Positions 9,586 through 48,045 of a stretch of 64,000 nucleotides of DNA are shown here, in pieces (positions within the stretch are counted from its first letter, which is position 1; each line of letters begins with the position of its first letter). The DNA comes from Desulfuromonas sp. Its GTDB lineage: Bacteria; Desulfobacterota; Desulfuromonadia; Desulfuromonadales; Geothermobacteraceae. Under the pieces are notes generated by a model, which did not search any database, was not told the DNA's origin, and was given only the letters and a program-made list of their open reading frames with translations. The stretch lies in assembly GCA_002868905.1 (NCBI GenBank), contig PKUA01000031.1, positions 1 to 64,000 of the forward strand, written 5' to 3'. The position numbers and the translations under genes were made by a program.

Positions 9586-9601
9586 GATCCCTACCGTCCC
9601 C

Positions 9602-29133: not shown

Positions 29134-29799
29134 TCAGGGCTTTTTCGTCCCCGGCTCCTTCTCCAGGCGCAGATCGTCATACCAGGCCAACGCCTCACCA
29201 CCGGTATTGTCGGTGTCGGTCATGATGGCGATGGCGCCGACCTCGGACGGTTCCTCCCCCCAGATACGGCGGTAGTCTTGCAGCACGTTGCGCCGTTCCT
29301 CGACCCACTGCCCGGCTTTGGCGACGCCGCTTTCGACCGCGAGCATCTGGGCGTTGGCGGTGAACGGGTTGTCGATCACCTCTCCCTGCGGCAGCTTGTT
29401 GGCCCAGATGTAATTGATAGTGCGGGTTTTCCAGAACAGCCAATGTGGAAAAACCACGTAAAGGCGGGCGGCGTAGTCGTCCCCCTCCTTGCGGGTGGCA
29501 TCACCGTTCGGCAGGGTACCGGCAATTTTCCAGCGCCAGGCGAGGACCGGCCAGTCGGCAAGATGAAACTTGCGCTCCATGAACAGGCCACTGGCGGCAT
29601 TTTTGCTCTGCGCCTGCAGCACCTGCCCGCCCCGCGTGTCGGAAATGGTGGAATAGTGGGTGTCGCCCTGGAAACTCTTGCGCTGCCAATGTGATCCGAT
29701 CCCTTGGTCGAAGTCATCGATCAGCCACGGTTCATCGGCCGCCACGACAACAGCCGGCCAAAGCAGCAGTCCAATCAGCAACAGGCTAAACCCACGCAT
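29134..29799 (-). CDS. Exported DUF3047 protein, last gene of the beta-helix/carboxypeptidase-like cluster
   Basis: 221 residues, signal peptide at the N-terminus (about 1-21, ending VVVAA) and a DUF3047 body (FDQGIGSHWQRKSFQG, WRWKIAGTLPNGDATRKEGDDYAARLYVVF, YIWANKLPQG). The family is predicted to be a periplasmic beta-sandwich, often found with carbohydrate or envelope genes; its function is unknown. ATG 29799 has GGAGG seven bases upstream and overlaps the polyferredoxin stop by 14 bases. As the end of a 17.5-kb gene run it is presumably part of the same periplasmic system. Confidence 0.85.
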   Translation of the reverse strand: MRGFSLLLIGLLLWPAVVVAADEPWLIDDFDQGIGSHWQRKSFQGDTHYSTISDTRGGQVLQAQSKNAASGLFMERKFHLADWPVLAWRWKIAGTLPNGDATRKEGDDYAARLYVVFPHWLFWKTRTINYIWANKLPQGEVIDNPFTANAQMLAVESGVAKAGQWVEERRNVLQDYRRIWGEEPSEVGAIAIMTDTDNTGGEALAWYDDLRLEKEPGTKKP

Positions 29800-31318
29800 C
29801 ACGCTTCCTCCGGCTCTCCCCCTCGTTGGTGACGCGAATGGCCGAAGCGCCCTCGAGCGGGCACTTGGTCTCGCAGATGCCGCAGCCGATGCAGCGATCC
29901 TTGACCACTCGGGGGATCTTCAGGGTCCTCACCTCGCTCTTGACCAGCACCTGCTGTTCGTCGAAAACGATCGCCTTCTCACCGGTCGGGCAGTGCTCTT
30001 CACAGACCAGGCACTCCTCGCGGCGAGCGAAAGGCAGGCAGCGATCCTTGTCGAAAACGGCGATGCCGATCACTTCCTTCTTTTTCTGTTCAAGGGGCAG
30101 GTGGCGAATCGCCCCGGTCGGGCAGACCTGACCACACAGGGTGCAATTATACTCGCAGTAACCGTGGCGCGCCACCAGCAGCGGGGTCCAGAGACCAACC
30201 GGGCCGGCCTGCAGCAGCGCGGGTTGCAGGGCGAGACCGATGCAGACCTTCATGCACTCGCCACAGCGGACGCAGCGCTGCAGGAATTCCTCTTCGTCGA
30301 CCGCGCCGGGGGGACGGAGCAGGTATTGGTTGCTGCGCCAGGTCGGCGGGCCGGTCATAACCGACGGCGCCAGCAGGGCGCCGCAGGCGAGGGATGTCAC
30401 CACCCCGCGACGCTGCAGATCGACACCGGCAGAGGGAGCCTTCTTGCCGAATCCGAACGAGACCCGCTCGGACGGGCAGTAGCCGGTGCAGTCGTGACAG
30501 AGAATGCACTCGCTGCGGGCATGGCCCGCTTCGTCGGTCGCCGCCATCCGGCAGGCGCTGGTACAGAGCTTACAGTCGCCGCACAGCTCGACCGGCTCAC
30601 GCCGGTAGAGAGCGTGGCGGCTGCAGATGCCGAGCAGGGCGCCGAGCGGACAGAGGTTGCGGCACCAGAAACGACGCTCAACCTTCTCCAGCAACAGGAT
30701 GACAACGAACACCAGCAGGGTGAACAGGCCAAGCTGGAAAGCGGGAGGATGAAACGCCATCAGGTGATCGCGCCAGAACGGGTAAAGCCTGTTGACCGCG
30801 TCGGAGACCACCGGCACCTGGTGCACATAGAAGAAATCGAACAGCCCGTTCGCCCCGCTGTTGTAGGCGGGATAAAGAGCAAAAGTCAGGCTGCGCAGGA
30901 AGATGGCGAGGGGATCGAACAGACCGAGCAGTTGCACCCCGAACAGGGACGCCGCCGCCAGGGTCAGCAGCAGGTAGTATTTCGCCTTACGCCAGCCGGG
31001 ACGCGGCTTCGACCGGGGAGATTTAAGCAGGGCGGAGCTGCCGTCGAGGGTGGTCCCGAGGGGGCAGATCCAGCCGCAGAAGAAGCGGCCGAGAAAAATG
31101 GTCAGCACCACAAGGAGCAGGGCGGGCCAGAGGCTGGCCCAATGAAACGGGCCGGGGGCGAACAGGTCGGCGAGAGCGGCGAGCGGGTCGATACGGAACA
31201 GCAGTCCGACCGGATACGGCAACTCGTCAAGACCGCGGTACTCGGTGGCGACGAACAGCCAGAGAAATCCGGCGAGGCAGATCAGCTGCGATGTCCGGCG
31301 CCAGCCGCGCGTGCCCAC
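29786..31318 (-). CDS. Membrane polyferredoxin (NapH/NosR-C-like) with multiple 4Fe-4S motifs
   Basis: 510 residues. N-terminal helices include LGRFFCGWICPLGT, the NapH/CcoG signature, and a second membrane-proximal NLCPLGALLGICS. Then come soluble ferredoxin motifs: CGDCKLCTSACRM, CILCHDCTGYCP, CVRCGECMKVC, CTLCGQVCPTG, CLVCEEHCPTG and CIGCGICETKCP. A protein like this passes electrons from the quinone pool to a periplasmic partner, as NapH and NosR do. No obvious terminal reductase is encoded nearby; the DUF362 protein and the beta-helix proteins are the candidates for partners. GTG start with GAGG upstream. Confidence 0.88.
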   Translation of the reverse strand: MGTRGWRRTSQLICLAGFLWLFVATEYRGLDELPYPVGLLFRIDPLAALADLFAPGPFHWASLWPALLLVVLTIFLGRFFCGWICPLGTTLDGSSALLKSPRSKPRPGWRKAKYYLLLTLAAASLFGVQLLGLFDPLAIFLRSLTFALYPAYNSGANGLFDFFYVHQVPVVSDAVNRLYPFWRDHLMAFHPPAFQLGLFTLLVFVVILLLEKVERRFWCRNLCPLGALLGICSRHALYRREPVELCGDCKLCTSACRMAATDEAGHARSECILCHDCTGYCPSERVSFGFGKKAPSAGVDLQRRGVVTSLACGALLAPSVMTGPPTWRSNQYLLRPPGAVDEEEFLQRCVRCGECMKVCIGLALQPALLQAGPVGLWTPLLVARHGYCEYNCTLCGQVCPTGAIRHLPLEQKKKEVIGIAVFDKDRCLPFARREECLVCEEHCPTGEKAIVFDEQQVLVKSEVRTLKIPRVVKDRCIGCGICETKCPLEGASAIRVTNEGESRRKRDAWV

Positions 31319-31325
31319 CCCGACC

Positions 31326-32240
31326 TCAGACCTTCCGGACCTTCTGCAGGTCCATCACCCCGAGACCGCGCCGGGCGCCGGCGGCGATGGAAGAGATCTC
31401 TTGCGGCTCCAGGCCGAACAGGGTCGCCGCCATGGCGTCGGCTGCGACGATGTCAGGCGAGGCGATCAGCGTGTTACGCACCTCGACGTCTTTGAGCCGT
31501 CCCCCCTGCGGGCCGTTGGCGACCAGGATGCGGGTGGCGTCGACGATGGTCAGGTCGGACTGCACCACCAGGTTGATGTCGGCGAGCGCCTCGTCGATCC
31601 GCTGGTGCAGCACACCGCGATTGCCGCCGATCACCCCCATGACGTTCTTCATGCCGAGGGTCAGACGGGAGATACCGTGATCCTTGGCGATCGGCAGGTT
31701 GATAAAGCGGTCGGCTTCGAGGGCGGGACGATAAAACGGCCATTTGTCAAAAACGATACCGCCGCGGATCGCGACATCGCCGTAGGCGCGGCGGTCCATG
31801 TGCTCAAGCACGGCGCGCTTGTCGCCGAAGGCGGCGAACATCTTCTCCAGGCCGCTGCTGTGGTAGCAGCGCCGCGGGTCGTTGCAGGTCCGGTCAAAAA
31901 CCCGCACCTTCTTCGCCCCCGCCTCGAGGCAGAGCTCGATGACGGTTTTGACCACGTCCGGGTGGGTGTTGGCGGCGTATTCCGGCGCCCGGTCCCAACC
32001 TATATTCGGCTTGACCACAACGGTCTCGCCCGCCTTGACGAATGTCCCCATGCCACCGAGGGCGGCGACCGTCTCTCGCACCAGCGCCGGGATATCGGTC
32101 CCCTTGCGCAGAGCGACCGGCGGCGCGTCGGCCGCCAGCGCCGGCAGGGCAAACAGGTCGACCAGCGGCAGCCCGCCGAGGGCAAACGCGCCCCCCTGCA
32201 GGCTGCGACGGATAAAGGTGCGACGGTCGATGCCGGTCAT
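31326..32240 (-). CDS. Tat-exported DUF362 protein
   Basis: 304 residues. DRRTFIRRSLQGGAFALGG is a twin-arginine signal, consistent with export of a folded, cofactor-bearing protein. The DUF362 core follows (VVVKPNIGWDRAPEYAANTHPDVV; CLEAGAKKVRVFDRTCNDPRRCYHSSG; PIAKDHGISRLTLGMKNVMGVIGGNRG). DUF362 proteins are often linked to iron-sulfur proteins, and here the gene directly precedes the polyferredoxin by seven bases. AGGAG lies seven bases before ATG. Role is unknown; a redox partner is the simplest guess. Confidence 0.87.
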   Translation of the reverse strand: MTGIDRRTFIRRSLQGGAFALGGLPLVDLFALPALAADAPPVALRKGTDIPALVRETVAALGGMGTFVKAGETVVVKPNIGWDRAPEYAANTHPDVVKTVIELCLEAGAKKVRVFDRTCNDPRRCYHSSGLEKMFAAFGDKRAVLEHMDRRAYGDVAIRGGIVFDKWPFYRPALEADRFINLPIAKDHGISRLTLGMKNVMGVIGGNRGVLHQRIDEALADINLVVQSDLTIVDATRILVANGPQGGRLKDVEVRNTLIASPDIVAADAMAATLFGLEPQEISSIAAGARRGLGVMDLQKVRKV

Positions 32241-32250
32241 GGCGAAACTC

Positions 32251-32856
32251 CTAGATCAGACGGTTCTGCTTGAGGAAACCGCGCGCCACCTTATGCGGCG
32301 GCTGCCCGGCCGCTTGCTTTTCGAGTTGCTCGATGGTGGCGTCGTCGATCCGACCTCCAAGCTTGTTGATCAACCGCGCCAGGGCCGGAAACTTCTTCAA
32401 TGTGTCCTTGCGCACCACGGGGGCCGCATCGGCCGGAGCACCGGCCGGTGCCTCCTGCTTGTTGGCGAAACCGAGCGGCTTGAGCCAGATCAGGTTGAGG
32501 TCCTGGTTGTAGACTTCCTTGACCGCCTTGAACAGCGCATCGGAGTCGGCAATCGCCTCCTTGCGCAGAATCTCGACCTGGCCGACGCCGGTGTATTCAA
32601 CGTACATGTCGATGTCCGCCTTGACCAGCGCCTCGTGCACCGCCGCGTGACCGCTGAAATCCGCCACCTTGACGCTGGTGCCGGTCCGCTCGGCGATCAG
32701 CACGGCCAACAGCTGCGCCAGCACCTGCTGCTGCACCGTGCCGGTCGAACCGATGACCAGGGTCTTGCCGACACAAGCGGAGCCATGTGGCACGCCAATG
32801 CTCAACGCGAGCAGCAGCGCCAGGCTGCCACAGAAAAATCGGGTCAAATACTTCAT
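32251..32856 (-). CDS. Shortened OpuAC-like substrate-binding protein with a missing central lobe
   Basis: 201 residues with a signal peptide (about 1-27). Residues about 30-135 match the first part of glycine betaine/choline-type binding proteins (LVIGSTGTVQQQVLAQLLAVLI, HEALVKADIDMYVEYTGVGQVEIL, NLIWLKPLGF). About 145-201 match the very end of the same family (APVVRKDTLKKFPALARLINKL..IDDATIEQLEKQ..AGQPPHKVARGFLKQNRLI). The roughly 80-100 residues expected between them are replaced by a short Ala/Pro linker. ABC permease and ATPase genes are absent. It probably does not serve transport; it may be a binding or scaffold subunit of the cluster. ATGA overlap with the beta-helix lipoprotein gene. 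Confidence 0.75.
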   Translation of the reverse strand: MKYLTRFFCGSLALLLALSIGVPHGSACVGKTLVIGSTGTVQQQVLAQLLAVLIAERTGTSVKVADFSGHAAVHEALVKADIDMYVEYTGVGQVEILRKEAIADSDALFKAVKEVYNQDLNLIWLKPLGFANKQEAPAGAPADAAPVVRKDTLKKFPALARLINKLGGRIDDATIEQLEKQAAGQPPHKVARGFLKQNRLI

Positions 32857-33719
32857 GGAACCTTCTCCTCTCTCCACCGGGAGATATCAACCGGCCCTGT
32901 GAGTGGGGCGGGCGTCAACACCCGGCCGAGTTGGGGATCGATGCGCCGGTCGAGAATACCGGCGGCTATTTGCTCGCCATCGGTCGTCCCCCACCAATTA
33001 TACGGCAAGGTGACGTCCTCGCGCTGCTCGATCCCGAGTTTTACGCTGTAATTCCTGTTATCCACCAGGTTATTTCGTGCAATGGTCGCCTTGTCTTTCG
33101 ACCTCGTCACCGCAAAGATACCGATGTCGTTGTTGCGGATATCGTTGTGGTGGACGCTTGCCACGCTGCCGCGCTCCTCGTAGCGCAACCCGTGGGTGTT
33201 GTGTATCATCCGGTTCCCCGCCACCTCGATATTGACGGTCGAGAAGCGGACCCCGTCGACATTGTACCGAAAGACCGAATCCCGAACGGTCGCCCGGCAG
33301 AAGTGGACCTGGACGCCGCTGTAGGCATACTCCGAGACGACATGTTCCAGGACCGCCTCTTTGGCGAAATCGAAATAGAGGTACTTCCAGTCCTGCGGCT
33401 TCGGCTCGGCCGCCCCGCTGGTGAACAGGATCGGCGCCTCGGCCGTCCCGCGCGCCAGCAGCGCCCCTTCGACCAGCAGCTCGCTGTCGCCGATGCCGTC
33501 GCCGTCCCGGTCTACAGGTTCGAAAACAATTTTCGTGCCGGGGAGGATCACCACCCGCCCCTGTTTTTTTACCGTGACCACCCCGCGAATCCGCACCTCC
33601 CCCTGCCAGACGACATCGGCCTCAACGACAGCGTCGACAAGGTGCAGCGATGGTTTCGTGCCGAGGCAACCGGCCGGCAGCAAAGCGCCGAGCAGAAGGA
33701 TGACAAAGCTTCGTCGCAT
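32853..33719 (-). CDS. NosD-like right-handed beta-helix lipoprotein (module 4)
   Basis: 288 residues. Lipoprotein signal with lipobox LPAGC (Cys18). The opening motif VWQGEVRIRGVV...RVVILPGTKIVFEP is shared with the other three beta-helix proteins of the cluster, and DRDGDGIGDSELLVEGALLARGT is shared closely with the PQQ fusion. Repeats such as VAGNRMIHNTHGL, VHHNDIRNNDIGIF and IARNNLVDNRNYSV are PbH1 coils; YNWWGTTDGEQIAAGILDRRIDP closes the helix. NosD, the best known relative, helps assemble the copper centre of nitrous oxide reductase; the present protein's substrate is unknown. Confidence 0.85.
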   Translation of the reverse strand: MRRSFVILLLGALLPAGCLGTKPSLHLVDAVVEADVVWQGEVRIRGVVTVKKQGRVVILPGTKIVFEPVDRDGDGIGDSELLVEGALLARGTAEAPILFTSGAAEPKPQDWKYLYFDFAKEAVLEHVVSEYAYSGVQVHFCRATVRDSVFRYNVDGVRFSTVNIEVAGNRMIHNTHGLRYEERGSVASVHHNDIRNNDIGIFAVTRSKDKATIARNNLVDNRNYSVKLGIEQREDVTLPYNWWGTTDGEQIAAGILDRRIDPQLGRVLTPAPLTGPVDISRWREEKVP

Positions 33720-33754
33720 ACGTTCCCTGGGAAAACGGCTATCCGCCGCTTTGA

Positions 33755-34066
33755 TCAGTGATACTTGCCGACGGTCTTCGCGTCGGGGACGGGTCCGAGA
33801 TCAATCTGACCGAACTGCTCCTCGAATTTGCGAACGTTCTCATGCAGGCTCGCCAGCATCCTTTTCGCGTGGCGCGGCGAGGTGACCACCCGGCTTCGCA
33901 CCTTGGCGCGCGGGGCCTGCGGCTGTAGAAAAACGAAATCGAGTATGAACTCGCTGTCGCTGTGGTTGGTGACCAGCAGGTTGGAATAAACCCCCTGCGC
34001 CGTCTCCTCGTCGAGCTGGATCTCGATCTTGATCTCCTTGGTCTCCTGCTGTTTCTTTTCCGCCAT
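33755..34066 (-). CDS. DUF3467 protein
   Basis: 103 residues without a signal peptide. EETAQGVYSNLLVTNHSDSEFILDFVFLQPQAPRAKVRSRVVTSPRHAKRML is the DUF3467 core, a small cytoplasmic beta-protein of unknown role found in many bacteria. It interrupts module 4, between the carboxypeptidase-like gene (17 bases upstream) and the beta-helix gene (35 bases downstream). Its presence as a lone cytoplasmic product in a cluster of exported proteins is odd. Confidence 0.85.
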   Translation of the reverse strand: MAEKKQQETKEIKIEIQLDEETAQGVYSNLLVTNHSDSEFILDFVFLQPQAPRAKVRSRVVTSPRHAKRMLASLHENVRKFEEQFGQIDLGPVPDAKTVGKYH

Positions 34067-34083
34067 GACTCCTCCTTATCGAC

Positions 34084-35124
34084 TCAGAACAGTTGAATGG
34101 TTTCCACGGTGATTGAAATCTCCTCGATGCTCGCACCGGTTTCGACCTGCAGCCCGTGGTCGGCGGTCTCTTCGTACATGCCGAACCGCTCTCCCGGCGC
34201 GGGAGAATCGCCGTAATTTTCACGGGCACCGACAAAGTATGTTCCTCCGCCGGGGAGATGCAACAAGAACCTGCCATCAGGCCCGGTCGGTGCCGACAGG
34301 GCTGCGGGACGCTGGTGACCGATGACCCGGTCAGTGTAGGCAAAAACGTGCAGGTTGGCTACCGGTTTCCCGGCAGTGTCGACCACCCGCCCACGCACCA
34401 GGGTGTTAGATGAGCGGCCGAAAGTCTCGCTCGAGGCGGCATCCTGTTGTTTGACCACAAGCGGCAGCTCGACCGCGACCACCTTGCCCGCCCTGGCCGA
34501 CAGCGGGTTGCCGGAGAAGATGCCGTAGAGATCGCCGGAGCGGACCGGACCCTGGCGTGAACCGTCCTCCCGCTTACGCGCAACCAGGTGGTAGTCGCTC
34601 TCCGGCAGGTTGTCGAAGGCGAAAAAGCCGTCCGGTCCGGTCGGAGCCGACATCCGGTAACCCTGTCCCTTCAACGCCTCGGCCACGTCGAGGTAGAGAT
34701 AGACCAGGGCACCTGCGACCGCCTGTCCGCCATGGCGGACGGTCCCCTCGATCGCGGCGCTGTATTCGTCATCATACGGTTCCAGCTTGATTGTCCCGAC
34801 CCGGACCGCCTGCAGTCCGGCCCAGACCTTCTCGGTTCCCACGGTCAAGGGATTACGCCCGTAAAAGGCGAACAGACCGCGCCCTGCATCCCTGGCGAAC
34901 AGGGCGTAATCGCCTGGCGGCAGGTCAAGATGAAAGATCCCGTCGCCACCAGTCGGTGCGGAGCTCGCCACCGGCTCACCGGAGAAATCGAGGTCGGACC
35001 AGGCCGCTACCGTGACCCCGGCCAGCGGGTCATCCTGCAACACCACCCTGCCACTCACCTCGGCCCCGAATACAAGGGTCGAGCCGAGCAGAAGCAGCAG
35101 CAGAGTACGGAACAGGATCATCAT
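34084..35124 (-). CDS. Exported three-repeat carboxypeptidase-regulatory-like protein (module 4)
   Basis: 346 residues, signal peptide ending LVFGA at about 21. Three transthyretin-like CarboxypepD_reg repeats of about 105 residues. Each has a G(D/T)Y-x-L-x-AR turn followed by a (Y/F)-x-G-x-NPL/V-type strand: GDYALFARDAG..FYGRNPLTV, SDYHLVARKRE..GIFSGNPLSA and GTYFVGARENYGDSPAPGERFG. The second repeat begins ALVYLYLD...ALKGQGYRM, a hallmark of the second repeat in all four paralogues. Probably a periplasmic or surface adhesion/scaffold module. It overlaps the beta-helix gene upstream by ATGATGA. Confidence 0.82.
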   Translation of the reverse strand: MMILFRTLLLLLLGSTLVFGAEVSGRVVLQDDPLAGVTVAAWSDLDFSGEPVASSAPTGGDGIFHLDLPPGDYALFARDAGRGLFAFYGRNPLTVGTEKVWAGLQAVRVGTIKLEPYDDEYSAAIEGTVRHGGQAVAGALVYLYLDVAEALKGQGYRMSAPTGPDGFFAFDNLPESDYHLVARKREDGSRQGPVRSGDLYGIFSGNPLSARAGKVVAVELPLVVKQQDAASSETFGRSSNTLVRGRVVDTAGKPVANLHVFAYTDRVIGHQRPAALSAPTGPDGRFLLHLPGGGTYFVGARENYGDSPAPGERFGMYEETADHGLQVETGASIEEISITVETIQLF

Positions 35125-36482
35125 TTCTGCGGGCCCGCCTTTTCGACCGCAGTCGGCAACGGCGGCCGGAACACCACCAGGTCGAGGACGTACTCGTCCG
35201 GACCGAATCCCTCGTAAACCACCTTCGGCTGGTCATGCCGATCCCAGAACAGGTCGAGGTTGGCGTCGTCCCGGGCAGCCGCGATTCGCTGGTTCTGGTC
35301 CCCCCAAAAATTCTCGGCGACATCGACCTTGTCGACGAATTCGGTCGGGGCCTGGGTCAGCATGGTGTTACGCGTCTTGCGCGCCTGGGACTCGGCCATC
35401 ATCAAACGCTTCGACCCGCTGCGCTTCTCCCAGTCAGCGCTCTGGTAGATACCGAGCCTGACCACCTCGGGGTTGGAGAGGAAGTTATTCTGTCGCACCA
35501 GCGGATAGGACGAGTAGTCGCAGAACAGCACCAGTTTATTTTGCTCGAAGTTATTGTGCCTGATTTTCGGGTTGGATTTCCGGTTATTGTAGATCGCGGT
35601 TTCGTTCTTGCTAAACGCGTTGAACTCGATCAGCGCCGAACCGTACTGGTCGTTGTGCACCGCCTTGTCGTTGCCGACAAATCGGTTGTTGGTCAGAGTG
35701 GGGTAGGCAAAGGAGAAGTTGACCACACCTTTCTCGTTGTTCTCAAACACGTTCCCATCGATCTGCGGGGTGTTCTTGGTCTGGTTGCAGAAGATACCGA
35801 CCTTGTTGTCAACGAAATGATTGCGCAGAACCCGGTCGGGATACGGTTGGGTGATCTGGACGCCGACCTGGCAGCCACTGATCTTGTTCTGTTCGATGAG
35901 TCCCTTGCTGTTGTGCGAGGCATAAATCGCCACCTTCGACAATTGTTCGAACCGGTTCCCCGTGACCTTGGGATAAGATCGCATCTCGATGTCGATCCCG
36001 ATCTCACCGCCGCTGAAATGGTTACCGGCGATCAACGGACCCGATTCACGCAGCAGGTTAATCCCATGTTTGCAGTTGTCGAAACGGGAATCCTTGACGC
36101 TGAAACGGGCGGCAATAGCGCTTATGGCGGTTTCGGCGTTCTCGAAGTGAACATGGCTGAACCGGGATTCGCCCCGCGGTTCCACCAGGTGAATCCCGAC
36201 CCAGCCGGGCGCCTCGAACCGAACCGGACGGTCGGCGGTTCCGAGCGCCTGGAGTCCTCCGCCGATTGTCAATTTCGCCTGCGGGTTGAGGACCTGGACC
36301 CGGGTTCCGGCCTTTATAGTCAGGGAGGCATCCGCTTCGACGATGGTCGCTTCCTTCAGGACCACGTCCCCTTCCCAGACGACCTCCCCTTTCAGGCGGA
36401 CATCAGCCTGAGAATTAAGCGGGAAGACCGACAGCAGACAGCAAACCAGCAGGGTCTTAATGAGCCTGTTTATGATCCACAC
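35121..36482 (-). CDS. NosD-like right-handed beta-helix protein (module 3)
   Basis: 453 residues with signal peptide (about 1-26, ending SQA). The N-terminal VWEGDVVLKEATIVEADASLTIKAG repeats the shared motif of the four paralogues. A long array of PbH1 coils follows, each near 22-24 residues with N-x-F/I patterns: ITGNRF-like, LIEQNKISGCQVGVQ, VLRNHFVDNKVGIF, IDGNVFENNEKGVV, LTNNRFVGNDKAVH, LIEFNAFSKNETAIY and IRHNNFEQNKLVLF. It ends with AENFWGDQNQ and a tail with DEYVLDLVVFRPP. GTG start with AGGAGGT eight bases upstream; overlaps the previous gene by 26 bases. Confidence 0.85.
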   Translation of the reverse strand: MWIINRLIKTLLVCCLLSVFPLNSQADVRLKGEVVWEGDVVLKEATIVEADASLTIKAGTRVQVLNPQAKLTIGGGLQALGTADRPVRFEAPGWVGIHLVEPRGESRFSHVHFENAETAISAIAARFSVKDSRFDNCKHGINLLRESGPLIAGNHFSGGEIGIDIEMRSYPKVTGNRFEQLSKVAIYASHNSKGLIEQNKISGCQVGVQITQPYPDRVLRNHFVDNKVGIFCNQTKNTPQIDGNVFENNEKGVVNFSFAYPTLTNNRFVGNDKAVHNDQYGSALIEFNAFSKNETAIYNNRKSNPKIRHNNFEQNKLVLFCDYSSYPLVRQNNFLSNPEVVRLGIYQSADWEKRSGSKRLMMAESQARKTRNTMLTQAPTEFVDKVDVAENFWGDQNQRIAAARDDANLDLFWDRHDQPKVVYEGFGPDEYVLDLVVFRPPLPTAVEKAGPQK

Positions 36483-37515: not shown

Positions 37516-37519
37516 GTTG

Positions 37520-38707: not shown

Positions 38708-39768
38708 ATCTCCCTCACCGTGATGACACCGAGATCGACCGTCCTACCTGACGCGATGTCGGCTCGATGGTCGGCCCGGCCGTCGAAGGTGCCGACCCAT
38801 TCGCCCGGTTCGAGCGGACCACCGAAATTGCTGCGCGCACCGATATAGTAGCTGCCACCACTGCCGAGATTGATCCGGAAGCGGCCGTCACCACCGGTCT
38901 GCGCGGAGATGTAGCTCGGCTTGCCGACCATGCCGCTGTCGATGTAGGCGAACAGGTAGATGCCGTCAACCGGTTCTCCGTCCCCATTGGCGACCAGGCC
39001 GACGAAAGCGGTTTCGGTCGTGGCGAACTTACCCGCAGCCTGCTGCTGTTGAAATGATTCGTTGCTGACCGGGCGGAGCGTCAGGTCAGCCAACCTGCTC
39101 TCGCTGCCACGCGAGAGTCTGACCGGGTTGTCCGGGTGGACTCCGTTGAGATCGCCCGGTGTCGGTTCGCCGAGGCGCCCTCCGACGCCCCTCTTTCGCG
39201 CTGCCAGCCAGTATTCTCCCTGCGGCAGCGGAATACGATAGGTCCCGGCATCATCGGTTTGGACCGAGGTTGCATAGGACGGCCCTTTCAGATCGACGCT
39301 CGCTTCGGTGTAGACATAGACGAACGCTCCGGTGACCGGCTCCCCCTCCGAGACCACTCGACCCAGCAGGGCGGTACCCGGTTCGGGAACCAGCTTGCCG
39401 CTCCGTCCCATCTCCTGCAGGGCAAACGGCGGCACCTCGACCATGCCGTTTTCCACCGCGACCGGGTTGGTCGGGCATTCCGCCATCAGCATGCGGGGGC
39501 GGCCATCCTCCCCGTTCTCCCGCTTTTTGCCGATGATGAAGTAATTTCCACTCGGCAACTCGAGTTGATAACGGCCATCCTGACCGGTTTCTCCGACGAC
39601 AAACGGCTGGGTCTTGCGATCCTTCCCCGACTTCAGGTAGACCTCGACCGTGGCACCGGAGATTGCGGACCCTGCAAACCGCAGTTCTCCCGAAATGCCG
39701 CTGCCGCTCTCCGTGGTACAACCTGCCAGAAGCAGGAGGGAGGAGAATAACAGACCGAGACGTTTCAT
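38701..39768 (-). CDS. Carboxypeptidase-regulatory-like lipoprotein (module 2)
   Basis: About 355 residues. ATG 39768 is preferred to TTG 39771 because it overlaps the preceding stop as TGATG. Lipobox LLLAGCTTE (Cys near 17). Three repeats: GNYFIIGKKRENGED with CPTNPVAV; GEYWLAARKRGVGGRLGEPTPGDLNG with PDNPVRL; GSYYIGARSNFGGPLEPGEWVG. The second repeat opens AFVYVYTEASVDLKGPSY. It would be anchored to the outer or inner membrane facing the periplasm. Confidence 0.82.
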   Translation of the reverse strand: MKRLGLLFSSLLLLAGCTTESGSGISGELRFAGSAISGATVEVYLKSGKDRKTQPFVVGETGQDGRYQLELPSGNYFIIGKKRENGEDGRPRMLMAECPTNPVAVENGMVEVPPFALQEMGRSGKLVPEPGTALLGRVVSEGEPVTGAFVYVYTEASVDLKGPSYATSVQTDDAGTYRIPLPQGEYWLAARKRGVGGRLGEPTPGDLNGVHPDNPVRLSRGSESRLADLTLRPVSNESFQQQQAAGKFATTETAFVGLVANGDGEPVDGIYLFAYIDSGMVGKPSYISAQTGGDGRFRINLGSGGSYYIGARSNFGGPLEPGEWVGTFDGRADHRADIASGRTVDLGVITVREIW

Positions 39769-42188
39769 CAATTCTCACTTCTCCAGCCGAGCAGGGCGAG
39801 TGCGCCCACGGCGTAGACCGCACCACCGCTCAGCAGAGTGACGGTAAACCCGGCGTTCATGGCGATGACCACCGCCAGCAGGGCGCCAAAAACACTGGTC
39901 GCGCCGTTGACTCCCCAGCTCCAGGCAACCGCAGCGGCGTCACCGTGCAGCAACCGCATCCCGAGCGGAAGCGGAAATCCGAGCAGCAGCCCGAGCGGGA
40001 CCAGCAGCATCACCGACGCAAAGCAGCGTACAAGAATCGGCGCTGCGAGCATGGAATCGAGCAGCATGGCGAGACCGTAACTGTAGAACTGACTGAGCAA
40101 GACCAGTGCCAACAGCACCGTCAGCAACCACCTCTTCTCCCGGCCGGGGGGCACCCGCGCAGCCAGCAGGCTGCCAAAACCGGAGAAGACCAGCAGGGCG
40201 CAGAGAATCACCGCCAGGGCGTAAATCGGCGGGCCGAGGAACAGGATAAACTGGCGGAGCATACCGATCTCAAGCAACATGAAGCCGAGACCGAGGCAAC
40301 TGAAATAGAGCAGGCGACGCCATCCTCCCCGGGCGAGCAGAGCTCTCCCCCGCAACAGGCTCAGGGGGAGGAGCAGACAGACGAGGACGAGGGCCGTCAC
40401 CACCACCAGCAGATTGCGCAGGGTCAAAATCGCCCGGTCCGAAAACGGAATCTCAGTCGGGAAGAAAAAGAGGTTGAGGAAGTCTCCCGGCTTGAACATG
40501 TAGTAAAAAAACGGCTTATCATCGCTGGTCGGCCGGACATCGAACGGGATCGAATCATAGAAGATCGGGTTGCCGTCGCTCTGAACCAGGCGGTGGAATG
40601 GGTCATTCCCGTCCCGCCGGTCGGGGAGCAGCACCTCCTGGAAAGCCAGATCCGCAGTCATTGTCCTCAGCGCGGCGATCTCTTCCGCAGTGAAGGGGCT
40701 CTTCTTCAGCATGAAGTTCGCCAGCCCCCGCTCCTTGATCACCGCAATATGCGCGGCCGGGTCAGTCACCCCCTGCTCCCGCAGAAAGGCGAGACCGAGG
40801 GAGACCAGGCGCAGGCTCTCCCGCTCGTAGATGAAACGGGATATGGTCAGGATGCCATCGTCGCTGAGGTGCTCCCAGTAGTCGCGGAACGCCTCGAGGG
40901 TATAGAGGTTGTTTTCCGACAGGGTGAAGGCACCGGCGGACGGCGGCATCCGCCCGAACACGGCCGACGCCTGAATCACGTCCCAGGCTCTTTGCTGGCG
41001 CCGAATCCAGCTTCTCCCTTCGTCAACCGCGAGCTCCACGCCAGGACGTCGATACAGCTCGCCGGTGAAGGAGCCGAACCGATCGTTGACCGCTTCGGCA
41101 ACCAGCGGGTTGAGTTCGAGCGCAGTCACCTTCGAAGCCCCTCCGGCCAGGGCCGCCAACACGTCCTTACCACCGCCGGGTCCGATCACCAGGCCGGTCG
41201 GCTGCTGCTTGATCCGGTAAGCGAGAGCGATGACATTGTGGCGGAAGAAGTCGAAATTCTCCCCGTCATCCCAGCGATACATGGTGGTGTAGCCGGTATC
41301 GTCGATCACCACGCCGAGCTGCTCGGGGATCGATCCCCGGAAGCGGCGCGACAGCCCCCAGGCCTGCTCCTCCCCCTCCCCGCGCACCGGGTAGACGGCG
41401 ACCCGGGAGAAGGAGTTCCAGCCGCTCCAGAGGATATTCGGCTCGTAGCGTCCACGCACGAAACGGACCCCGGCGTAATCATACAGATAGTTGCCGATCC
41501 CGGCGGCCAGCAGCACCAGGCCGATAATGAGCGGTACGACCCTGATTCCCCTTCCCCGATCAGGGGAGAGCAGCCAGGCGGCAAACAGTCCGACCAAACC
41601 GATGGCAAGCAGGCCGGTCATGCCGCCGACCAGCTTGAGGATCGGGATAATCAGCAGGCAGCCTGCGCCAGCTCCGAGCAGGTCCCAGCTGTAAAGCCGG
41701 CCGATCGAAGCGAGGTGCCGCCTGAGCAGCAGGGTGATACCGAGTCCGCTGCAGAAAAACGGCAGGGCAGTCAGCAGGTAAAGCAGGGTCAGGGAGAGCA
41801 GCATGTCGACCGGCAGGTCGACGTTGTTGAACCCCTGCTGAAACGGCTGGAAATGGGTCTGGTGAAAAAACGACAGGATCTTGAAACCGACCTGCGGCTG
41901 CAACCGGAACCAGACGAACAGTCCGAAGAAGAAGCTGACGCTCAAGGCGAACGCGACTCCGCAAAGGGAAGCCTGCCGTTCGGTCTTGTCGGGCGGGAAC
42001 CAGTCGGCTTTCAGGTAAACAAGCAGGGCGGCGAGGGAGATGCCGAACAGCGCCAGAGAGATCGCCATCGAGGCGAAATGGTACCACATGATGACGGCGA
42101 AGATCCGGGTCAGGATCAGCTCGTACATCAGGGTCGCCAGGGAAAGAACGAACATCCCCCAGCAGGTGCGGCGCGTCAGATCAATCAC
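39768..42188 (-). CDS. Polytopic spermidine-synthase-like membrane protein
   Basis: 806 residues. An N-terminal hydrophobic region (about 10-235) with several helices beginning MYELILTRIFAVIMWYHFASMAISLALFG, a central SAM-dependent transferase-like domain (about 260-560) with LVIGPGGGKDVLAALAGGASKVTALELNP, and a C-terminal helix bundle (about 585-800). This architecture is a known but uncharacterised branch of the spermidine synthase superfamily; polyamine synthesis by it is unproven. It sits between modules 1 and 2, with GTGA overlap to the PQQ fusion gene. It could modify a lipid, peptide or amine that the exported proteins handle. Confidence 0.85.
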   Translation of the reverse strand: MIDLTRRTCWGMFVLSLATLMYELILTRIFAVIMWYHFASMAISLALFGISLAALLVYLKADWFPPDKTERQASLCGVAFALSVSFFFGLFVWFRLQPQVGFKILSFFHQTHFQPFQQGFNNVDLPVDMLLSLTLLYLLTALPFFCSGLGITLLLRRHLASIGRLYSWDLLGAGAGCLLIIPILKLVGGMTGLLAIGLVGLFAAWLLSPDRGRGIRVVPLIIGLVLLAAGIGNYLYDYAGVRFVRGRYEPNILWSGWNSFSRVAVYPVRGEGEEQAWGLSRRFRGSIPEQLGVVIDDTGYTTMYRWDDGENFDFFRHNVIALAYRIKQQPTGLVIGPGGGKDVLAALAGGASKVTALELNPLVAEAVNDRFGSFTGELYRRPGVELAVDEGRSWIRRQQRAWDVIQASAVFGRMPPSAGAFTLSENNLYTLEAFRDYWEHLSDDGILTISRFIYERESLRLVSLGLAFLREQGVTDPAAHIAVIKERGLANFMLKKSPFTAEEIAALRTMTADLAFQEVLLPDRRDGNDPFHRLVQSDGNPIFYDSIPFDVRPTSDDKPFFYYMFKPGDFLNLFFFPTEIPFSDRAILTLRNLLVVVTALVLVCLLLPLSLLRGRALLARGGWRRLLYFSCLGLGFMLLEIGMLRQFILFLGPPIYALAVILCALLVFSGFGSLLAARVPPGREKRWLLTVLLALVLLSQFYSYGLAMLLDSMLAAPILVRCFASVMLLVPLGLLLGFPLPLGMRLLHGDAAAVAWSWGVNGATSVFGALLAVVIAMNAGFTVTLLSGGAVYAVGALALLGWRSEN

Positions 42189-44020
42189 GGCTGCGGCCCC
42201 GGCAACAGGCGCCAGGCATGCACGAAATTGTCGCGAGAGCCGACCACCAGCAGGTCATCTACAAACAGGGGGGTCCCCTGGATGGCGCCGCCGGTCTCAA
42301 CCCGGCCGATCACCTCACCGCTGGCAGAATTGAGCAGATGAAGCCAACCGGTGTTGTCCCCGATGGAGATCCGGCCGTCGGCGTAGGCCGGCGTCCCGTA
42401 GAACGGGCCGAAACCGCGGAAGCTCCACTTGGTGCTGCCGTCCCGCGGGTCAAAGGCATAAAGGTTTCCGGCGGTGGTGGCGACCAGCAGGGACCCGTCC
42501 GCATACAGCGGGGCGGAGTAGAAAACCGACTCACGCAGTTCACCGCGCCACTTGGTTTCTCCCAGCCGATTCATGACCGTCAGCACTCCCTCCTTGTTGA
42601 CCACCGCCAGACCACCGGGAACAGCCGCCGGTGAAGCGAGCAGCGGCGCCCCGAAATCCCGTGTCCACAGAAACTCTCCCTGGAGGTTGAGGGCTGTCAG
42701 TCGCCCGCTGCCGCTCCCCTGGTAAATAACATCATCAATCACCAGCGGGGTGGAACGGAGCGGATAACCGCAGTCAATGTTCCAGCGGACCGTGCCGGTT
42801 TTGGCCTCGATGCCGAGCAGTGATCCATTCCAGGCCGGCACCAGCAACAGGTCGTCAGCACGAGCGACACCCCCCTGGCGGTGATCGTCGGCAAGAGACT
42901 CGGGGTAAAAAATACGCCACTCCACCTCGCCGTTTTCCCGGTCGACCGCCAGAATTTCTCGGTTCCAACTCTGCAGATAGACCCGTTCATCGTCGAAGGC
43001 GACCGCGCTGTCTCCTTCTTCACCGAGCGCGATATTCCATCGCTCTTTGCCGTCGAGATCAATAGCGCGAAGAACGGCATCCCAACCGGCAACCACAAGC
43101 GCGTCCCCGACCTTGACCGGTGACGCATCGACGAAACTGCCGGTCTCCCGCCGCCAAACCTTGTTCAGCCTCAGGCTGTCTCGCGGACCGGCTCCGTCGA
43201 TCTGCTTAATATTCGGGTTGACCTTGATCTTCCCGATTCCGGGGTCGACGTCACGGTCGTAAAGCTTCGGCGGCTTTTCCCGTTCGCCATAACGGCCATA
43301 CCAGTTATCCCGCACCTCGATCTCACCGGTGAAAAAATCACCGAGACGGAGATGCCATTGGTTGTCGAGGAAATTGTTGTGGTGGATCGACCACTGCCGA
43401 TTGGTTTCGAAAATAAACAGGCCGGAGTCGTTGTCACGGATCAGGTTGTGATCGATTTCGACTTCGCTGTTACGGAAATTGAGTCCCTTGCCGCTGTTCT
43501 GTTCAATGACCGAATGGCTGACCCGGTACTTCCCCTCGCCGAAACGGGTGCCGTCGAGGTTGCCGCGCAGACGGCTGTCTTCGATGATGCCGTGACTGAA
43601 GTGGGCATGAAGCCCGTGGGCTGAGCCGCTGATTTCGCACCAGCGCAGTTCCAGTCTCTTGGCAAAATCGACCCGGATCTCCAGCCAGTCGGACGGGTTG
43701 CCGGGAGATGCGTCACTGACAAAACGGATCGGAGCGTCGCGGCGGCCGTTGGCGACCAGGGAGGCATGCTCCACCTTGAGCCCACTGTCGCCGAGCCCGT
43801 CCTGATCCCGATCCCGCTTGACGAACCGGACTTCGGTCCCCGGGGCGATTGTCAGGGTCGCACCACCGATCACCCTGACAGTCCCATCGACCAGGATGGT
43901 CCCCTGCCAGAGGGTATCGGTGCTGATGCTCATGTCCCCAAGCCGCTGCATCTGCGGTTGGCCGGGGAGGGAACACCCCGTCAGTACGACAACCATGATC
44001 AGCAAGAAACGCACTACCAC
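42185..44020 (-). CDS. Beta-helix lipoprotein fused to a PQQ-like beta-propeller (module 1)
   Basis: 611 residues. Lipobox VVVLTGCSL (Cys near 16). The N-terminal half (to about 265) is a NosD-like beta-helix with the shared opening LWQGTILVDGTVRVIGGATLTIAPGTEVRF, coils ISHSVIEQNSGKGLNF-like and IHHNNFLDNQWHLRL, and cap NWYGRYGEREKPPKLYDRDVDP. The C-terminal half (about 275-611) has seven or so W-docking repeats of the PQQ/BamB type (VVAGWDAVLRAIDLDGKERWNIAL, LLVATTAGNLYAFDPRDGSTKWSF, LVVGSRDNFVHAWRL). True PQQ binding is doubtful; such propellers are often protein-interaction platforms. It overlaps the carboxypeptidase-like gene by seven bases. Confidence 0.85.
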   Translation of the reverse strand: MVVRFLLIMVVVLTGCSLPGQPQMQRLGDMSISTDTLWQGTILVDGTVRVIGGATLTIAPGTEVRFVKRDRDQDGLGDSGLKVEHASLVANGRRDAPIRFVSDASPGNPSDWLEIRVDFAKRLELRWCEISGSAHGLHAHFSHGIIEDSRLRGNLDGTRFGEGKYRVSHSVIEQNSGKGLNFRNSEVEIDHNLIRDNDSGLFIFETNRQWSIHHNNFLDNQWHLRLGDFFTGEIEVRDNWYGRYGEREKPPKLYDRDVDPGIGKIKVNPNIKQIDGAGPRDSLRLNKVWRRETGSFVDASPVKVGDALVVAGWDAVLRAIDLDGKERWNIALGEEGDSAVAFDDERVYLQSWNREILAVDRENGEVEWRIFYPESLADDHRQGGVARADDLLLVPAWNGSLLGIEAKTGTVRWNIDCGYPLRSTPLVIDDVIYQGSGSGRLTALNLQGEFLWTRDFGAPLLASPAAVPGGLAVVNKEGVLTVMNRLGETKWRGELRESVFYSAPLYADGSLLVATTAGNLYAFDPRDGSTKWSFRGFGPFYGTPAYADGRISIGDNTGWLHLLNSASGEVIGRVETGGAIQGTPLFVDDLLVVGSRDNFVHAWRLLPGPQP

Positions 44021-45093
44021 ATCTCCTCCACGATAATTTCAAGTCCCTTCAGGCTGCCGCCTCTCTCGACCTTCAGGGAATGATCCGGTGTTCCGTCATA
44101 GGTCCCGAACAATTCCCCCGGCCCGGGAGCTCCACCAATAGTATTGCGCCCGGCGAGGAAATAGGTGCCGCCGTCCGGTATTGAGATAATGAACTCCCCG
44201 TCGACAGCGGTCGGCTGGGAGACCGCCAACGGGCGATTGAGCATCTGCGCATCCCGATACAAAACGGCGCGCGCCCCACTGACCGGAATCCCGGCGGCAT
44301 TGACGATCACCCCCTGCAGGGTGGTCCCGCCGAACAGGGACGCCTGCAGGCTGTCGACTTTCTCCGGCACCTCCAACAAGGGAAGATGGATTCGGCTGAC
44401 CTTACCAGACTCGATCCGGACGGGGTTGCCGGGATAGTAACCGACGAAATCTCCCGACCGCAGCGGACCGACCCCCTGACCGCTGAGCCGTTTGCGCGCC
44501 AGCAGGTAGTAGGTCCCGGCCGGCAATTCAGCCTCCACCAGGCCACCGTCATCGCTCGGACCGACCATGACGTACCCCATCCCCTTCAGTTCAGAGGTCA
44601 GGTCGAGGTAGGCGTAGAGGGTCGCCCCGGCGAGTGGCGTGCCGTCGGCGCTCAGATTGGCCATGACCCCACTGTTCAGAAAAGGCTCCCCTTCGGGTCG
44701 TTCTCCTGCGGTCCGAACCAGGCCGATACTGATATCGCGATTTTCCGACACGGAAACCGCAACTGGATTCCGCCCGTAATAGGCAAACACCCCGTCTCCA
44801 TCTGCAAAGAGGTAATACCTCCCCTCCGGCAGGACGAGCCCGAAACGGCCCTTATCATCACTCGGTGCCGAGCGGAACGGGGCCATGTTGCCGAGACGGC
44901 TCGCCTCGACCGGCCAGGCCGAGATCGTCACGCCGGCATGCGGCTTCCCGTCGAGCATGGACTGCCCCAGCAGGTTCGGGGGTTGCTGGGGTCGACCGGA
45001 GGCGGCACAACCGGTCAGGAGAAAGATTGCCAGCAGCAAAAGACCTGCCTGGCAAAAAGCCTTGGTCATTCGATTAATTCGAGCTGATTTCAT
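44014..45093 (-). CDS. Carboxypeptidase-regulatory-like lipoprotein (module 1)
   Basis: About 359 residues from ATG 45093 (TTG 45096 and a later ATG 45069 are alternatives). Lipobox IFLLTGCAASG. Repeats: GRYYLFADGDGVF with YYGRNPVAV; GTYYLLARKRLSGQGVGPLRSGDFVG with YPGNPVRI; GTYFLAGRNTIGGAPGPGELFG. The second repeat opens ATLYAYLDLTSELKGMGY. It is the first of the four paralogues to be transcribed. Its 5' end overlaps a possible 34-codon frame. Confidence 0.82.
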   Translation of the reverse strand: MKSARINRMTKAFCQAGLLLLAIFLLTGCAASGRPQQPPNLLGQSMLDGKPHAGVTISAWPVEASRLGNMAPFRSAPSDDKGRFGLVLPEGRYYLFADGDGVFAYYGRNPVAVSVSENRDISIGLVRTAGERPEGEPFLNSGVMANLSADGTPLAGATLYAYLDLTSELKGMGYVMVGPSDDGGLVEAELPAGTYYLLARKRLSGQGVGPLRSGDFVGYYPGNPVRIESGKVSRIHLPLLEVPEKVDSLQASLFGGTTLQGVIVNAAGIPVSGARAVLYRDAQMLNRPLAVSQPTAVDGEFIISIPDGGTYFLAGRNTIGGAPGPGELFGTYDGTPDHSLKVERGGSLKGLEIIVEEMW

Positions 45094-45178
45094 CAATTAC
45101 GCCCGTCAAGTCCTTGCTGATGCCGGATGAACGGCAGAAAGCCGTCGAAGCTGCTTCGATCTGCCGACGGAGTTTCAT
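45074..45178 (-). CDS. Possible small protein between the permease and module 1
   Basis: A 34-codon frame, MKLRRQIEAASTAFCRSSGI then SKDLTGVIDEISSN, begins 15 bases after the permease stop and overlaps the start of the module 1 lipoprotein by 20 bases. An AAGGG lies about 12 bases ahead of the ATG, which is far. It could be a translated coupler or an artefact; no family recognised. Confidence 0.3.
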   Translation of the reverse strand: MKLRRQIEAASTAFCRSSGISKDLTGVIDEISSN

Positions 45179-45192
45179 CAAATCTCATCCCT

Positions 45193-46149
45193 TCAGGTCC
45201 CCAGCAGCTGGTATCCCCATCCAAGCAGAATCGACACCGCCAGGCTGACCCCGAGAAACAGGCCGAGCACCCGCCTTCGGAACATCCCGCTCAGGGCGAT
45301 GATCGCCGGCAGACTCGACACCGGCCCGGCCAGCAGCAGGGTCAGGGCGGCGCCCTGATCAATGCCGCGTTGCAACAGGCCGTTCAAAATCGGGATCAAC
45401 GGAATCTGGTTGGTCGGCAGCGGCAACCCGATGAAGGCGGCCACCAACGGTGAAGTCACGCTGCGACCTCCGATCAGGGAAACGATCCACTCGGTCGGGA
45501 CCAGTGTCACCAGGACTGCTTCGAGGAAGATCGCCAACAACAGAAACTTACCGGTGAACAGGGCGGCATCGAGGGACCGGTCAAATATAAAACGAAGCCG
45601 GCTCGCCCGCGGCACGATGGTCATGCTCTTGACCTTGATCCCCGCGTCGGCACCGATCTCAGCGGCGCTCGCCAGGCTTCCGTCCTCGCGATAAAGCGGC
45701 TTAAGCAACAGATCGTCATTTTCCCCGTTGCGACCGAAAAACCAATGAGCGCCAAGTCCGACCGAGAGGCCGAGCAACCCGGAACCGACCACCTTCAACA
45801 CCGCCCACTCCGGGCCGAGCCAGGTCCAGGTCAGCAGCAGGGCGTCGGGTCCCATGGTCGGCGAGGTGGCGAGGATCGCCAGCAACGGCGCCAGCGGGGT
45901 GCCGATCATCGCCAGGGAGATCACCACCGGCAGGATGCCGCAGGCGCAGAGTGGCGAGACCATGCCGACGCCGATGGCGATGAGGATGCCGAGCAGGCCG
46001 CTGCGCTTGACGGCGTTGCGGATGGTCAGGTCGAGTTTGTAGCCCTTGATGACACCGACGAGGAGGGCGGAGAGGAGAAATATCCACCACATCCGTCCCA
46101 GCTCGAGCAGCACGACGTCGAGCATCCGCATCCAGACCGAATCAGACAC
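45193..46149 (-). CDS. DUF318-type (YraQ/ArsP-like) membrane permease
   Basis: 318 residues. Two halves of four helices each, with SPLCACGILPVVISLAMIGTPLAP in the first (the CxC of this family) and GLPLPTNQIPLIPILNGLLQRG in the second, joined by a soluble loop (about 140-195). Family members move metalloid or organic metalloid compounds (ArsP) or have unknown cargo. GTG 46149 is chosen over TTG 46167 because GGGGGGAG is six bases upstream. It overlaps the FmdE-like gene by eight bases and leads into the exported-protein cluster. Confidence 0.85.
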   Translation of the reverse strand: MSDSVWMRMLDVVLLELGRMWWIFLLSALLVGVIKGYKLDLTIRNAVKRSGLLGILIAIGVGMVSPLCACGILPVVISLAMIGTPLAPLLAILATSPTMGPDALLLTWTWLGPEWAVLKVVGSGLLGLSVGLGAHWFFGRNGENDDLLLKPLYREDGSLASAAEIGADAGIKVKSMTIVPRASRLRFIFDRSLDAALFTGKFLLLAIFLEAVLVTLVPTEWIVSLIGGRSVTSPLVAAFIGLPLPTNQIPLIPILNGLLQRGIDQGAALTLLLAGPVSSLPAIIALSGMFRRRVLGLFLGVSLAVSILLGWGYQLLGT

Positions 46150-46624
46150 GATCGCTCCCCCCTTCAATGGTCAACAGCGTCGTGTCCGGCAGGTTCCAGA
46201 ACTGTGGCAGCAGCCGGTCGAGGGTCTGGTCCATGACCGCACGACGCTTCTGCTGTTCATCCGCCAGAAGGCTTTCCCACCCCGCTTCCAGCTCGTTGCA
46301 GAGGTCACGATAGGTCGCCGCACGACAAAGCGTCGCCTCCGGCAGTCCGACCGTGATCGAGCGCCCCGGCACCTCCAGGGTCAGAGCGTGCCGCCCGTCA
46401 TGCAGCACCCGCATTGTCCCGTCCTCTTCCCTGCATCCGGTCGCCTCGGCGATACCGTCGAGGGCGCAGGTCCGCACCCCGAAGGTGCCTCGCACCGCCT
46501 CGCTACCAGGCGCCAGGTACTGCAACGCCGCCAGTCCGAGCCGCCCGCCAAGGGTGCTCATTGGGCAACGATGGCCGTGCCGGTCGTAAATACGCTGAAA
46601 AAATGTCGGTGCGATAATAGGCAA
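46142..46624 (-). CDS. FmdE-domain protein
   Basis: 160 residues. RHGHRCPMSTLGGRLGLAALQYL matches the FmdE metal-binding signature (HGHxCP), named after a subunit of formylmethanofuran dehydrogenase but widespread in bacteria without methanogenesis. CREEDG and LTLEVPGRSITVGL follow. The start appears to be TTG with a poor ribosome site, so the N-terminus is uncertain. It is the first gene of the run that leads through the permease into the beta-helix cluster; metal or redox sensing or delivery is a reasonable guess. Confidence 0.75.
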   Translation of the reverse strand: MPIIAPTFFQRIYDRHGHRCPMSTLGGRLGLAALQYLAPGSEAVRGTFGVRTCALDGIAEATGCREEDGTMRVLHDGRHALTLEVPGRSITVGLPEATLCRAATYRDLCNELEAGWESLLADEQQKRRAVMDQTLDRLLPQFWNLPDTTLLTIEGGSDRV

Positions 46625-46685
46625 ATCAGTTCACCAAGGAAAAAGCGAATAAATTAATTTCGTACCCAAGCCCCAGGGCGAGGGA

Positions 46686-46785
46686 TTTTGGCTCAGATCA
46701 AGGCGGTCAAGGGAGAGCCGCACAGGCGTAGCGGAAGCTACGTCGAGCAGGATCGAGCGCAGACCAACGCCGAGCTGGGCCAAAA
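46686..46785. repeat. 100-base element with 11-base terminal inverted repeats
   Basis: Ends are TTTTGGCTCAG (46686-46696) and CTGGGCCAAAA (46775-46785), complementary except for one pair. The interior is GC-rich with short self-complementary stretches (AGCGGAAGCTACGTCGAGC). It lies between the AAA gene and the FmdE gene, whose upstream ends flank it. No coding frame. It resembles dispersed non-autonomous elements of proteobacterial genomes. Confidence 0.6.
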
Positions 46786-46798
46786 GAACCGCCCCTCA

Positions 46799-47680: not shown

Positions 47681-48045
47681 GCGTCATCTGTCCTAGGTTG
47701 TGGATTGAAGGTTCCCGCGCAGGGAAAACCAAGCTTGACAAGAGCAACAACTATGCCACCACCTGGTGCAAATTAACGAAGCAACGGAATGAGCAAGGTT
47801 GCCCTGAGGCATCGGGCGAGGCGAGGCTTAAACTGACATGCCCCTCATCCGCCCTTATGGGCACCTCTCCCTCGGGGAGAAGGATGGTGTGTTGCAACTG
47901 GAAAGCTTTGGATAAAAGCGATGATTTTGAACCAGCATGTGGAAACATTCAACCGGCCACGGTGTCAATCGATGCAGAACGGATGTTGTCGGATACAATA
48001 GGAAAGCAGGTTCTCTCAGAGGGGATTACCGACCCAGGCCAGAAC
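47681..48045. other. Intergenic region with a dispersed repeat
   Basis: Between the AAA gene and the DUF2817 gene. It holds repeat copy A (47805-47950). The open frame running through it in phase with the DUF2817 gene is dominated by repeat sequence and is not considered coding. No convincing promoter was seen. Confidence 0.5.
47805..47950. repeat. Dispersed hairpin repeat, copy A
   Basis: Contains CCCCTCATCCGCCCTT..GGGCACCT, a hairpin CCTCTCCC/GGGAGAAGG (one bulge, 47862-47883) and a tail ending GCATGTGGAAACAT. It aligns over more than 100 bases with copy B at 58228-58380. Confidence 0.75.

Follow-up and report, generated by a model that had tools for sequence, protein, structure and literature searches.

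The DNA analysed here, referred to as the window, is a stretch of 64,000 nucleotides from Desulfuromonas sp. (assembly GCA_002868905.1, contig PKUA01000031.1, positions 1 to 64,000). On its minus strand lie 17 head-to-tail genes (Table 1) which, together with an operon on another contig of the same genome, look like an undescribed machine that builds or wires something redox-active in the cell envelope. A preliminary description of the sequence had recognized 16 co-directional genes at 29134-46624. All of these open reading frames (ORFs) were recovered, and Pfam agrees with the domains it had named: FmdE, four beta-helix proteins (NosD/Beta_helix, one with an additional PQQ propeller), four transthyretin-like (TTR) proteins (CarboxypepD_reg), DUF3467, DUF362, a polyferredoxin (Fer4), DUF3047 and a permease (ArsP_1). 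OpuAC is matched as well. A 17th gene, encoding an AAA-domain protein upstream of FmdE, was absent from that description and is part of the unit. Intergenic distances within the run range from -26 to +35 nt, with a single exception of 96 nt between the permease and TTR1. Where four lipoproteins had been proposed, three have clear lipoboxes (TTR1, BHpqq and TTR2) and two more are plausible (BH4 and the OpuAC-like protein).

Table 1. Positions of the gene run, its upstream promoter-like site and the distant operon (BH, beta-helix protein)
Feature	Position	Strand	Remarks
Sigma-54 (-24/-12) promoter-like site, TGGCATAGTTGTTGCT	47743-47758	minus	62 bp 5' of AAA start
AAA	46799-47680	minus	CDC48/VCP-like single AAA domain, dead Walker A; first gene of module A
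FmdE-family protein	46142-46624	minus	HGHxCPM motif; PF02663, 55 bits; H16, H18, C20, C53, C64 conserved
ArsP_1-family permease	45193-46167	minus	C74, C76 conserved; nearest models SaoE and SO_0444 Cu/Zn efflux, both below cut-off
TTR1	44014-45096	minus	CarboxypepD_reg (transthyretin-like) repeat lipoprotein
BHpqq	42185-44020	minus	Lipoprotein; NosD-like beta-helix fused to PQQ/BamB-like propeller
SpmS	39768-42188	minus	Spermidine-synthase-like Rossmann domain in a membrane protein; opens module B
TTR2	38701-39771	minus	Lipoprotein
BH2	37520-38707	minus	Exported NosD-like beta-helix
TTR3	36457-37515	minus	Exported TTR-like repeat protein
BH3	35121-36482	minus	Exported NosD-like beta-helix
TTR4	34084-35124	minus	Exported TTR-like repeat protein
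DUF3467	33755-34066	minus	Small cytoplasmic protein; PF11950, 98 bits
BH4	32853-33719	minus	Beta-helix and probable lipoprotein; ends module B where that stands separately
OpuAC/OsmF-like binding protein	32251-32877	minus	Truncated; conserved Cys at end of signal peptide
DUF362 protein	31326-32240	minus	Tat-like signal DRRTFIRR; 163 bits
Polyferredoxin	29786-31318	minus	NapH-like membrane half and NapG-like Fe-S half; invariant Cys
DUF3047	29134-29802	minus	Exported, last gene; also 3' of the polyferredoxin in L099, L100, L126 and L130
Module C operon, 14 genes	L142 (G000:C64) 1028-13799	minus	

Related loci were retrieved with the 806-residue SpmS as query and annotated by profiles built from the window families. 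The order AAA-FmdE-ArsP-(TTR1)-BHpqq-SpmS-TTR2-BH2-TTR3-BH3-TTR4-DUF3467-BH4-OpuAC-DUF362-polyferredoxin is shared by more than 20 other genomes, and the run is therefore more than a chance arrangement. Every scorable adjacency is kept in at least 93% of cases (the lowest being 27/29 and 14/15); AAA lies directly 5' of FmdE in all 17 related loci that hold both, and TTR4 adjoins DUF3467 in 18/18 cases among other Desulfuromonadales. Homologues scattered singly, with no conserved linkage, had been named beforehand as the outcome that would speak against a coherent system; the linkage proved to be conserved.

In Geothermobacter-like genomes and several distant families, the run is split into two modules. 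Module A consists of AAA-FmdE-ArsP-TTR1-BHpqq-(DUF3467)-OpuAC-DUF362-polyferredoxin-DUF3047 (L098, L100) and module B of SpmS-TTR2-BH2-TTR3-BH3-TTR4-BH4 (L059, L060, L102, L115). The window carries A and B fused, as do most Desulfuromonadales having both. The TTR and beta-helix proteins each fall into four ancient types whose positions are kept across families. In the tree, BHpqq groups as sister with BH4, and BH2 with BH3; among the TTR proteins of the window, the one nearest to TTR1 is TTR4. This pattern fits duplication of a TTR-beta-helix pair followed by specialization. Many relatives also encode an FG-GAP/ASPIC (CRTAC1-like) protein 3' of the permease, between it and TTR1, or beside SpmS; in this genome, its counterpart (74% identity) stands alone on another contig. 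A distant version in family f89 (L117 and L070, the latter in G247) has AAA followed by OpuAC-like, ResB-like, DUF362, beta-helix and PhnD genes in one locus, mixing parts of module A with parts of the operon described next.

A separate module B has, in divergent orientation beside it, genes encoding a protein with an EB_dh heme domain, a TTR lipoprotein of two domains, a HEAT lipoprotein and a protein of the NapH type. In this genome, those genes lie not on the window contig but on contig C64, in a 14-gene operon termed module C: EB_dh, TTR, HEAT, NapH, half an OpuAC, two beta-helices, PhnD, a TPR-like protein, YedE, PqqD, GeoRSP radical SAM, SPASM and a protein of the selenocysteine-lyase/cysteine-desulfurase family. 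The order is identical in eight other genomes. GeoRSP is an orphan radical-SAM/SPASM/PqqD cassette (NCBIfam TIGR04302/04303/04304), and its radical SAM is found in module C here and in the eight relatives. At L142:3288-4289, this protein passes its model (TIGR04303, 448.9 bits against a cut-off of 400), as do the YedE 'selenium transporter' (397 against 200) and the TIGR01977 selenocysteine-lyase family member (451 against 377). The PqqD (TIGR04302, 94.1 against 100 bits) and SPASM (TIGR04304, 86.1 against 300) candidates fall below their cut-offs, though they adjoin the radical SAM. YedE has been tied to selenium metabolism through gene context (PMC5322559), and the TIGR01977 family has been named a probable selenocysteine lyase (PMC2276186). 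We treat the selenium or sulfur link of module C as a lead rather than a result.

In marine relatives of Geobacter, the three modules are inherited together. In a sample of 194 genomes of the class, with the dead-AAA motif, close SpmS and module C NapH as markers of A, B and C, the modules were found in 34, 33 and 33 genomes, respectively, and 31 of the 36 genomes having any of them have all three. Fisher tests gave p=4e-33 for AAA with SpmS and p=3e-34 for SpmS with NapH (B with C), on counts that are not independent events because the genomes are related. Linkage does not explain the pattern, since A was near C in none of the 31 genomes; B was near A in 20 and near C in 9. GeoRSP, likewise, was not found physically linked to the window genes in these 31 genomes, its tie to them being co-inheritance. 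Further, all three modules are jointly lost in G443, whereas G417, G469 and G520 of the same genus (g257) have them, and a second joint loss separates G399 from G445 in genus g249.

Transcription signals point in the same direction. Scans for promoters and terminators inside the run gave 3 against 3.5 expected and 16 against 15.3 expected, that is, no excess. Several independent internal signals had been named as a second outcome that would count against a single unit; the sole conserved promoter-like site is the one upstream of AAA. This sigma-54-type site, TGGCATAGTTGTTGCT, is the second best on either strand of the window, the best lying within a coding gene. Of 38 distinct regions upstream of AAA, with the distant family f48 represented among the positives, 30 have an equivalent site at a score of at least 20.2 of 21.7, which none of 100 shuffles of each region reached (0/100). 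In a control set of 921 regions upstream of ORFs, which still contains these units, 35 reach the same threshold. Similar sites are present 5' of stand-alone SpmS and of many EB_dh starts. An NtrC/AtoC-type activator (72-80% identity among relatives) and a GGDEF protein precede module C, with GGDEF 5' of the activator. With its conserved order, near-perfect co-inheritance and one conserved promoter-like site, the coherent envelope system first proposed for this locus is well supported. The most cautious reading is that A, B and C, about 30 genes divided among three or four transcription units, form a single system, probably under sigma-54. The two-module structure, the unlinked third operon and the sigma-54 control had, like AAA, escaped the preliminary description.

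About 280 residues of AAA align with the D2-type AAA domains of CDC48/VCP (p97), here as a single domain. Its Walker A reads GPLGTGIT (Lys to Ile), its Walker B ISDCEW and its sensor 1 GSCYRID, while KRFNR is retained in the Arg-finger region. Active motifs (GxxxxGK[ST], DE) are replaced by GPLG[TV]GIT and FISDxEW in 18/18 copies, and these copies were fetched via SpmS, not via the dead Walker motif itself. SpmS, which has no Pfam match, is predicted (mean model confidence, pLDDT, 86) to hold a spermidine-synthase fold between two membrane halves, and its central Rossmann fold matches the spermidine synthases 1inl and 4yuv. D170 and D173 of T. maritima SpeE, the aspartates responsible for binding and activating the amine, are not conserved in the alignment (consensus DVIQASAVFGRMAPSAG), being replaced in a Gly, Ala region. 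Because both catalytic aspartates are lost, aminopropyl transfer by SpmS is unlikely.

The permease shares a Pfam family with SaoE and the SO_0444 Cu/Zn efflux permeases but scores far below their cut-offs (89 bits against 325 and 81 bits against 300, respectively) and has different neighbours. The OpuAC-like protein is about 200 residues long, with no ABC transporter genes beside it. DUF3467 is poorly predicted (pLDDT 62.6), and phmmer found no solved relative for DUF3467, DUF362 or TTR3. Some genomes that have lost the rest of the system still carry DUF3467, alone or sometimes with DUF3047, in one constant place flanked by thiamine genes and a DAHP synthase gene (L125, L128, L129 and L134). 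Thiamine genes also lie close to the site in the window. As many genomes have it alone, DUF3467 was rejected as a marker of the system, and because it is kept at these relict sites it may have a role of its own. Elsewhere, its homologues directly follow giant repetitive frames (>2900 residues) in L132 and L136 of families f3 and f97.

Radical SAM/SPASM proteins acting with PqqD usually serve peptide modification or the making of small cofactors, NapH-type proteins oxidize quinol, and ArsP-family permeases move soft metals or metalloids. In the mechanism that we propose, YedE and the selenocysteine-lyase/cysteine-desulfurase-family protein of module C would import or mobilize selenium or sulfur, and the cytoplasmic product of the PqqD-assisted radical-SAM/SPASM pair (GeoRSP) would be a modified peptide or a small redox cofactor. 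This product, or its metal partner, would cross the inner membrane by means of modules A and B, through the ArsP-family permease with the FmdE metal protein and possibly SpmS. Its assembly in the periplasm and outer membrane would use TTR and beta-helix proteins, paired into a scaffold that is probably a hetero-oligomer because there are four conserved types of pair. Electrons for its reduction would come from the quinone pool through the two NapH-type Fe-S proteins, together with DUF362 and the heme protein EB_dh. For the dead AAA, a role as a non-hydrolysing subunit or adaptor is probable. The genes present, their order and joint inheritance, the promoter-like sites and the missing catalytic residues are observations; the product, the direction of transport, the path of electrons and a part in metal or mineral respiration are inferences.

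We assign a probability of roughly 0.4 to this reading as a whole, that is, to a three-module system that is passed on and lost as a whole, apparently shares sigma-54-dependent transcription and works by such a mechanism. Besides the relatedness of the genomes, several points weigh against it. Phenotypes of the organisms are available for only a few genomes, those with a name. The selenium link is based on family names, and no precursor peptide gene was noticed. In some genomes, module C is shortened to EB_dh-TTR-HEAT-NapH, and the GeoRSP link does not cover these. No sigma-54 site scored upstream of EB_dh in this genome, which the activator genes lying before it may explain. Finally, the window cluster encodes no multiheme c-type cytochrome and hence no porin-cytochrome conduit; no protein with at least two CXXCH motifs was found in the window. 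A bolder form of the proposal, in which a selenium or sulfur redox cofactor or peptide built by the radical SAM is exported into a non-cytochrome TTR/beta-helix conduit of marine mineral-respiring bacteria, is a long shot.

Cytochromes are central to one alternative, in which the apparatus assists extracellular electron transfer: a scaffold at the surface or in the periplasm would dock or export multiheme cytochromes for mineral or electrode respiration, and the Fe-S proteins would be quinol dehydrogenases. In families f25, f88 and f99, module A does have cytochromes beside it, with 11, 17 and 2 hemes (the 17-heme protein in f25), and one with 5-16 hemes follows module B in f96. In addition, module A is present in Geothermobacter hydrogeniphilus HR-1, an iron reducer (PMC5968728), and so is module B, which there adjoins the start of C. 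Most cluster versions in Desulfuromonadales, however, are without a cytochrome, and within the class sample the system is not found in families f3, f4, f97 and f124, which are probably Geobacter and kin. Geobacter and kin respire metals, in this case without the system, and we consider an accessory role of this kind unlikely. Two further observations concern the cytochromes themselves. Conserved cytochromes with 11 and 2 hemes lie upstream of AAA in three distant families (L104, L105, L108, L109, L110). A 17-heme relative is encoded elsewhere in this genome; L119 (G000:C43, 7516-18000) holds a 17-heme cytochrome of 1302 residues followed by an open frame of more than 2190 residues with beta-helix-like repeats.

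A likeness to nos, suggested in the preliminary description, underlies another alternative, in which the beta-helices and polyferredoxin build and reduce a periplasmic metal site (e.g. copper), FmdE and the permease supply the metal, no radical-SAM product is involved and the link to module C is regulatory only. At the domain level the likeness holds: NosD/Beta_helix domains and NapH/NapG-type Fe-S proteins are common to the run and to nos clusters (NosD/NosR, clade II NosG/NosH), and the permease is near the SO_0444 Cu/Zn efflux family. It does not hold more closely, as BH2, BH3 and BH4 score 27-66 bits with the NosD model against a cut-off of 300, BHpqq is not among the matches listed, and the polyferredoxin looks like a NapH-NapG fusion, not NosR. 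As had been stated at the outset, none of NosZ, NosF, NosY and NosL is among the 17 genes (29134-47680), and the cluster offers no candidate metalloenzyme. No nos_propeller was matched in the genome, though its control also matched nowhere. The run differs further in its TTR pairs, dead AAA, SpeE-like protein, DUF3467, DUF362 and the other, co-inherited operon. It is not a nos system, and a nos-like maturation or electron supply is a rather poor prospect. Less plausible still is a surface structure for signalling, adhesion or biofilm formation, with TTR, beta-helix and FG-GAP repeats as adhesins beside membrane enzymes: the FG-GAP/ASPIC protein so often found near TTR1 or SpmS and the GGDEF protein before the module C activator would suit it, but it leaves the polyferredoxin, DUF362, EB_dh and radical-SAM genes and their co-inheritance unexplained.

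In the open-access literature, a scope that makes absence weak evidence, no description of the cluster or of envelope partners of GeoRSP was found; DUF3467 led to one unrelated paper, and GeoRSP and SaoE to none that was relevant. GeoRSP is an already named cassette; what appears to be new is its association with this envelope apparatus. The redox-active envelope system proposed here would join about 30 uncharacterised genes (among them GeoRSP, DUF3467, DUF362, DUF3047, a dead CDC48-like AAA and a SpeE-like membrane protein) into a single system that can be tested and has sigma-54 as its predicted common switch. Should it support mineral or electrode respiration, the route would not be cytochrome-only, in bacteria important to marine metal cycling.

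Other features of the window can be noted briefly. The 110-bp stretch between AAA and FmdE showed no repeat in the DNA searched. Upstream of the cluster, a TonB-dependent receptor (49184-51271, minus) is not conserved with it in the related loci viewed. On the plus strand, at 25753-27027, lies a LarA-like protein of the nickel-dependent racemase family, which at 427 bits is just below the LarA cut-off of 460.

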